From Desulfobulbaceae bacterium (GTDB lineage: Bacteria; Desulfobacterota; Desulfobulbia; Desulfobulbales; Desulfobulbaceae), in NCBI GenBank assembly GCA_011391865.1, contig JAABPV010000006.1, positions 1 through 60,522 on the forward strand: a stretch of 60,522 nt of DNA. Reading direction: 5' to 3'. Under the pieces are notes generated by a model. The model had not been told where the DNA came from and did no database searches. It saw only the letters and a program-made list of their open reading frames with translations. Both the position numbers and the translations under genes were made by a program. How positions within the stretch are numbered: position 1 is the first letter of the stretch; each line of letters opens with the position of its first letter. Of this stretch, positions 26,330 through 26,728 are shown one piece after another.

Positions 26330-26728
26330 CGCGGGGTGGAGCAGTCTGGTAGCTCGTCGGGCTCAATTCCGCAAGATTGACAGAGTATAAGATCAAGCAG
26401 ATACACATCTGGTTGAAGCTGACAAACGGCAGCGCAAGCCGCGTTCTGCCGTCCACCGTGACAGGTGGGAGTCAATTTTGCAATGGGCTGCATGTAGGGA
26501 AACGTACATGCGATCGCCTCTCAAAGTCGGGGAAGCCTTTGGCACTGGTAATCCCGAGCCAAGCCTTCGTCAGAAGGAAGGTGTAGAGACTTGATGGGAG
26601 GCACCCTAACAGTTCGGCTGAGGGTGAAGGGAAAGTCCAGACCACAAACTGAAGCAGTTCAGGCGGCGAAAGCCGAAGTGGTACGCATAACCCGAAGGTC
26701 ATCGGTTCAAATCCGGTCCCCGCTACCA
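26330..26728 (+). tRNA. Initiator tRNA-fMet (CAU), interrupted by a group I intron
   Basis: The 5' exon (26330-26363, 34 nt) begins CGCGGGGTGGAGCAG and ends at U33; the 3' exon (26686-26728, 43 nt) begins CATAACCCG with the anticodon first and ends in an encoded CCA. Joined, they give a 77-nt initiator tRNA with the diagnostic three G-C pairs in the anticodon stem (GGG/CCC), an unpaired first position (C1 against U72) and T loop TTCAAAT. Exon limits follow the group I rule of U before and G at the end of the intron. Sequence alone would also allow a shift of one or two bases. Confidence 0.95.
26364..26685 (+). ncRNA. Group I intron in tRNA-fMet (322 nt, no ORF)
   Basis: The insert contains the conserved group I core in order: a Q-like element TAATCCCGAGCCAAGCC (near 26550), an R-like element GGTGTAGAGACTTGATGGG (near 26580) and an S-like element GTGAAGGGAAAGTCCAGACC (near 26625). 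These closely follow the pattern of cyanobacterial tRNA-Leu introns, suggesting the same broad subgroup (IC3-like). The intron ends in G and enters after U33. It has no homing-endonuclease gene and is small enough to be a self-splicing ribozyme. I could not lay out P1 with confidence; TCAAT at the 5' junction can pair with ATTGA 10 bases on. Confidence 0.93.

Follow-up and report, generated by a model that had tools for sequence, protein, structure and literature searches.

A group I intron splitting the initiator tRNA gene of a Desulfobulbaceae bacterium, and introns at the same site across bacterial phyla

Group I introns that interrupt the initiator tRNA gene (tRNA-fMet) were reportedly described in cyanobacteria by Biniszkiewicz et al. 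in 1994 and by Paquin et al. in 1997. The representative from Synechocystis sp. PCC 6803 is 655 nt long and carries the homing endonuclease I-Ssp6803I. Open-access papers place the I-Ssp6803I gene within the Synechocystis tRNA-fMet intron (PMC1995217) and mention tRNA-fMet introns for cyanobacteria alone (PMC4033280, PMC5733544, PMC1995217, PMC8450103). No examples outside cyanobacteria are named in these papers, and a wider report elsewhere is possible. Group I introns are also described in the tRNA-Arg-TCT genes of Beggiatoa and Thiomargarita (PMC4853749).

Here we analyse a 60,522-nt stretch of DNA from a Desulfobulbaceae bacterium (the window), in which positions 26330-26728 hold a tRNA-fMet gene split by a group I intron. 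Like the cyanobacterial introns, this one lies in tRNA-fMet between U33 and C34 (the site seen in the cyanobacterial loci retrieved here) and shares their guide/exon pairing. The two differ in that the window's host is a non-cyanobacterial, dsrA-carrying organism and its intron has only the C-terminal remnant of an endonuclease. The full explanation that we hold with high confidence is that this is a self-splicing intron of the tRNA-fMet/I-Ssp6803I family that was gained by homing and has since lost its endonuclease. The intron type is known from cyanobacteria; the type of host and a spread over at least ~14 phyla are new relative to the open-access papers cited above.

The split gene and its ribozyme

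The tRNA-fMet gene lies on the + strand in two pieces separated by 322 nt. Its 34-nt 5′ exon (26330..26363) ends with U33 and its 3′ exon (26686..26728) runs from the CAU anticodon to the encoded CCA, as judged from the sequence, from ARAGORN and from identity to the intact gene of a congener. The intron between U33 and C34 (26364..26685, + strand) starts with CAAUU and has G as its last base. ARAGORN run without introns finds no tRNA in the window, and with introns allowed reports a tRNA-Met(CAU) of 77 bases carrying a 322-nt intron between gggct and cataa. In a covariance-model scan of the window, Rfam family RF00028 matches over the full-length model at 51 bits (E 4.8e-10), just above its gathering cut-off of 50 bits, and no other Rfam family scores above its gathering threshold. 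An earlier note, made from the sequence alone, had proposed a group I intron in an initiator tRNA gene, with a 322-nt insert, a cut between U33 and CAU and a terminal intron G. The Rfam match bears out the intron class, ARAGORN and the reading of the exons give the same boundaries, and the Q-, R- and S-like core elements named in the note are in place. What that first reading missed were an endonuclease remnant (see below) and a candidate promoter and terminator of the tRNA gene.

The candidate promoter is of sigma-70 type (TTGACA-17 nt-TATAGT, 11 of 12 consensus positions; 26288..26316, + strand) and lies 13 nt 5′ of the tRNA. A hairpin resembling an intrinsic terminator, with a 12-pair stem and a T run behind it, lies at 26738..26766 on the same strand; both elements are consensus matches only. 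Beyond the hairpin, positions 27100-34641 hold a long non-coding stretch and then a chemotaxis-like cluster, which includes a DUF4388-response regulator at 27279, CheY-like and CheW genes and a large CheA hybrid (30181-34641).

The internal guide sequence AUGGGCU (26483..26489, + strand) was read from the sequence and appears in the minimum-energy fold, and its GGGC is invariant in 28 aligned tRNA-fMet introns. Guide nucleotides GGCU pair with GGCU of the 5′ exon to form P1, with a U.G pair at the splice site, and guide nucleotides AUG pair with CAU of the 3′ exon to form P10, so that the guide spans the junction GGCU^CAU. When positions 26358-26495 are folded freely, exon GGCU together with intron CA is paired with UGGGCU in the minimum-energy structure, and the precursor RNA has a folding z of −4.5, which together with the covariation given below speaks against a chance structure. 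The catalytic core and periphery (26490..26682, + strand), defined by a structure model and covariation, comprise P2 (26490-26511), P3 (26517-26522/26596-26601), P4 (26527-26532/26552-26557), P5 (26536-26537/26547-26548), P6-P6a (26558-26582), the P7 pseudoknot (26588-26592/26633-26637), P8 (26602-26626) and P9.0/P9 (26641-26682).

This core model, with 56 pairs in 12 helices from P2 to P9 and P7 as a pseudoknot, was evaluated on the alignment of 28 tRNA-fMet introns, where 96.4% of cells are paired. The covariation score is 0.449 versus 0.191 in shuffled alignments, none of the 500 shuffles reaching it, and 35 pairs are changed on both sides versus 22.6 in shuffles; covariation is lost once the pairing partners are slid. 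The last P7 pair alone occurs in four types (UA in 17 introns, GC in 5, AU in 3 and CG in 3). A pairing of the guide with the 3′ strand of P7, proposed by RNAalifold, was dropped for the known P7 pairing, which covaries. In the window intron 54 of the 56 core pairs are standard and two are non-standard. Since helices P2-P9 are kept along with the guide/exon pairing, the group I core and the logic of the splice sites are intact. This is a real group I intron whose structure has been preserved and which is predicted to splice, and resemblance to known bacterial tRNA introns suggests subgroup IC3 as a tentative assignment.

The tRNA-fMet would be transcribed as a single gene, from the promoter at 26288-26316 to the terminator at 26738-26766, and its transcript would fold into the ribozyme. 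In P1 the guide AUGGGCU would hold the 5′ exon end GGCU, where the U.G pair marks the cut; once the first step is complete, it would also hold CAU of the 3′ exon (P10). That first step would be a cut after U33 by an external guanosine that sits in P7, and the freed 3′-OH of U33 would then attack after the last intron G and join U33 to C34. The product would be a normal 77-nt tRNA-fMet, apparently the only one in the cell.

The host genome is a 2.80-Mb draft in 87 contigs that is 95.2% complete. Strong matches to the joined-exon tRNA in this genome are the gene's own two halves only, and a tRNA-family search recovers 41 other tRNAs above the cut-off. The earlier note had called for a genome-wide search for a second tRNA-fMet; with the joined tRNA as query none was found in the 95.2% complete draft, where the split copy stands by itself. 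The split gene is probably the cell's only tRNA-fMet gene, and a second copy within the missing 5% of the genome is possible but unlikely. Because the split gene is apparently the only one, translation initiation would depend on the ribozyme. Every protein of the cell would start with a tRNA first released by splicing, which is a potential single control point over translation. The host also carries dsrA (590 bits, cut-off 393) with an adjacent dsrB-like gene, and the sulfur-cycling lifestyle suggested for it in the earlier note is thereby supported.

An incomplete, fragmented genome and an Rfam score near the cut-off leave room for a dead insert in a redundant gene, with initiation relying on an intact tRNA-fMet copy missing from the assembly. 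We consider this very unlikely. No helix is lost, P7 included, and 54 of the 56 pairs are standard; the exons are unmutated (77 of 77 positions identical to a congener), and the promoter-like and terminator-like sites are retained. Moreover, congeners have one tRNA-fMet copy at this locus, and in all 30 genomes searched among hosts of introns at the same site (see below) the strong tRNA-fMet matches are two halves of a split gene, with no intact close tRNA-fMet, so that the split gene is apparently the sole copy in those hosts as well.

Endonuclease remnant and congeneric sites

Long introns at the same site (~620-700 nt) encode a protein of ~150 amino acids that matches PF11645 (E 3e-50) and PDB 2ost (E 2.7e-63), the structure of I-Ssp6803I. 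A profile made from 14 full-length homing-endonuclease genes of same-site introns was used to search the 1864 stop-to-stop segments of the window, and it picked a single one, 26397-26507 on the + strand, with E 8e-12. This segment is a remnant of an I-Ssp6803I-like PD-(D/E)XK homing-endonuclease gene, retaining ~37 codons of its C-terminal end. It sits in the P1 loop and extends into the internal guide and P2. Because conservation in the guide and P2 could be at the RNA level, the codons overlapping them were excluded from a second test, in which the codons upstream of the guide still gave E 7.5e-9.

The upstream ~110 codons of the endonuclease gene are absent from the window intron, which has the C-terminal remnant only and not a full PD-(D/E)XK homing endonuclease. 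PF11645 has no match elsewhere in the host genome or in the genus, and no full endonuclease that would point to recent homing was found there. Partial endonuclease frames of a similar kind occur in the introns of loci L057, L069, L097, L105 and L134, and most short members of the tRNA-fMet intron family likewise lack a full endonuclease gene. For this reason its absence bears on mobility rather than kinship, and the remnant identifies the window intron as a decayed homing intron.

The empty site was examined in a comparison set of five genomes of the genus, including G001, G002, G003 and G004. In G003 (locus L041) an uninterrupted tRNA-fMet gene lies at the syntenic position and is identical to the joined exons at 77 of 77 positions; its two exons abut, and the upstream flank, on the side of a thioesterase gene, is 75% identical over 1.5 kb. 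G001 has an intact tRNA-fMet that is 99% identical to the joined exons, and G004, a genome 69% complete, gives a weak partial match only. The syntenic gene of G002 contains 246 Ns (L055:1524-1769). Its 3′ side runs through the junction without an intron, which could reflect a gap in the assembly, masked sequence or a mixed population. Two weak group I matches were not taken as introns. One in G003 is partial (27.5 bits, L038:1501-1612) with no tRNA exons visible alongside, and one in genome G140 (23 bits, L040) lies where none were seen.

The host assembly is a draft, and the N stretch in G002 falls at the same place in the gene, as might be seen if the insert were an artefact of chimeric assembly or binning. 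However, the insert lies midway in a 60.5-kb contig, its exons join exactly at a group I site, its flanks are syntenic to those of congeners, and introns occupy the same site in many unrelated genomes. A chimera is therefore extremely unlikely.

Members of the genus differ in whether they have the intron, which would follow from a recent gain here or from loss in the other members; loss in the congeners rather than recent gain is possible. The most likely history is a lateral arrival driven by homing and followed by loss of the endonuclease, where we infer homing as the route as well as the lateral nature and the direction of the arrival. The ancestral intron would have encoded a PD-(D/E)XK homing endonuclease and, once the host lineage had split from its intron-less congeners, would have entered the conserved target in the anticodon loop by homing. 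Most of the endonuclease gene would then have been deleted, leaving an intron that could still splice itself but was immobile, since it no longer encodes its own means of movement. Because the decayed endonuclease can be set beside relatives that are intact and a congener whose site is empty, the cycle of gain, decay and loss of a bacterial mobile intron could be tested in one genus.

Introns at the same site across bacteria

A scan of genome contigs for the S motif of group I introns with G|CATAACC suitably spaced downstream returned at least 115 stretches. Among the matches listed, a pattern search located the 5′ exon for 70, nearly all reading GGGCU|CA. Five of these were kept out of the count of clean tRNA-fMet introns, although they were left in the tree described below: L101 and L119 (elongator-Met-like), L068 and L148 (wrong 5′ exons) and L088 (Ns). 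Boundaries were taken from the exon search, as the intron mode of ARAGORN shifts the cut in several of the tRNA-fMet genes and so mislabels them, calling them Leu or Ser.

The matches listed thus include at least ~65-66 further tRNA-fMet introns at the identical U33|C34 site, those of cyanobacteria among them. Their hosts are Cyanobacteriota, Bacteroidota, Chloroflexota, Omnitrophota, Nitrospirota, Rhodothermota, Methylomirabilota, Actinomycetota, Pseudomonadota, Thermodesulfobacteriota, Armatimonadota, Elusimicrobiota, Melainabacteria, Planctomycetota and Uhrbacteria. The earlier note had given the known range of tRNA introns as cyanobacteria and a few Proteobacteria, which is far too narrow for tRNA-fMet, where same-site introns span at least ~14 phyla. 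Within the window's own phylum the pattern is rare, since only the host genome has it among 395 sampled.

These data make it probable that tRNA-fMet introns of the I-Ssp6803I type form a mobile element spread across the bacteria that uses one conserved anticodon-loop site, which would leave the only initiator tRNA ribozyme-dependent in lineages of some 14 or more phyla. Every stage of the homing cycle would then be visible, from a full endonuclease through a remnant or none to the empty site of a congener.

Group I introns with the same G|CATAACC junction were also seen in elongator-tRNA-Met-like genes of Bacillota, Chloroflexota and candidate phyla, at L101, L119 and several loci lacking a tRNA-fMet 5′ exon, such as L065, L070, L086, L089 and L131. 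Four other loci (L176, L178, L180 and L181) hold group I introns in genes that ARAGORN labels tRNA-Gln-like and tRNA-Asn(GUU). Their hosts are a Muproteobacterium and Nitrospirota, which the open-access papers cited above do not mention for introns in these tRNAs.

Kinship and comparison with known systems

On the core, the nearest tRNA-fMet introns among the matches listed share 77-82% identity with the window intron; they come from Chloroflexota, Cyanobacteriota, Nitrospirota, Actinomycetota and Pseudomonadota. By comparison, identity is 63-70% to cyanobacterial tRNA-Leu introns, and 64-66% to tRNA-Arg(UCU) introns of its own family and order. In the tree the window intron branches among tRNA-fMet introns, along a backbone that is poorly resolved, and the tRNA-Leu introns group apart. 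The closeness to cyanobacterial tRNA-Leu introns asserted in the earlier note is therefore not borne out, either by core identity or by the intron tree that it had proposed. AU tests on 212 columns do not reject a grouping with the tRNA-Leu introns (p 0.364) or with the tRNA-Arg introns of the same family (p 0.295). Phylum labels cluster on the tree, yet 22 changes are needed versus a minimum of 15, consistent with descent and transfer having both played a part.

The unrejected grouping with tRNA-Arg introns would also suit a local jump, in which reverse splicing carried the family's own tRNA-Arg(UCU) intron into tRNA-fMet with no arrival from another phylum. The tRNA-Arg(UCU) introns of G017 and G025 (other genera of the same family) and G169 (same order) have a related core and start with CAA or CAC. 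Nevertheless, we regard such a jump as unlikely, given the lower core identity to these introns than to the nearest tRNA-fMet introns listed, the tRNA-fMet guide and tRNA-fMet-type endonuclease remnant of the window intron, and the lack of any RF00028 match in tRNA-Arg in the window's own genus. The shared site, guide and endonuclease remnant are best explained by descent within the tRNA-fMet family, and by its sequence features the window intron belongs with the tRNA-fMet/I-Ssp6803I introns and not with those of tRNA-Leu.

Among known systems, the cyanobacterial tRNA-Leu(UAA) introns belong to the same general class and have similar core motifs, but interrupt a different tRNA and group separately. 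The tRNA-Arg(UCU) introns of G017, G025 and G169 are likewise small group I introns of the anticodon loop with the same core layout, and differ from the window intron in tRNA, guide and site; no endonuclease was found in these three genomes. Introns of this tRNA-Arg(UCU) type were observed at loci L036, L037 and L039 of two family members and one genome of the order, around positions 1477-1785, and L037 has an extra tRNA-Arg 5′ half just upstream of the split gene (~1304-1340).

Closer counterparts are the tRNA-fMet introns of Nitrospirota (L057, L097 and L105) and Methylomirabilota (L072 and L100), which occupy the same site and have cores 77-80% identical to that of the window. The Methylomirabilota introns, unlike the window's, keep a full endonuclease frame, whereas those of Nitrospirota have partial endonuclease genes as in the window, and the C-terminal remnant at L097 is nearly the same. 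The nearest cyanobacterial tRNA-fMet introns listed have cores ~80-81% identical to that of the window intron, and their endonucleases are of the same family as its remnant.
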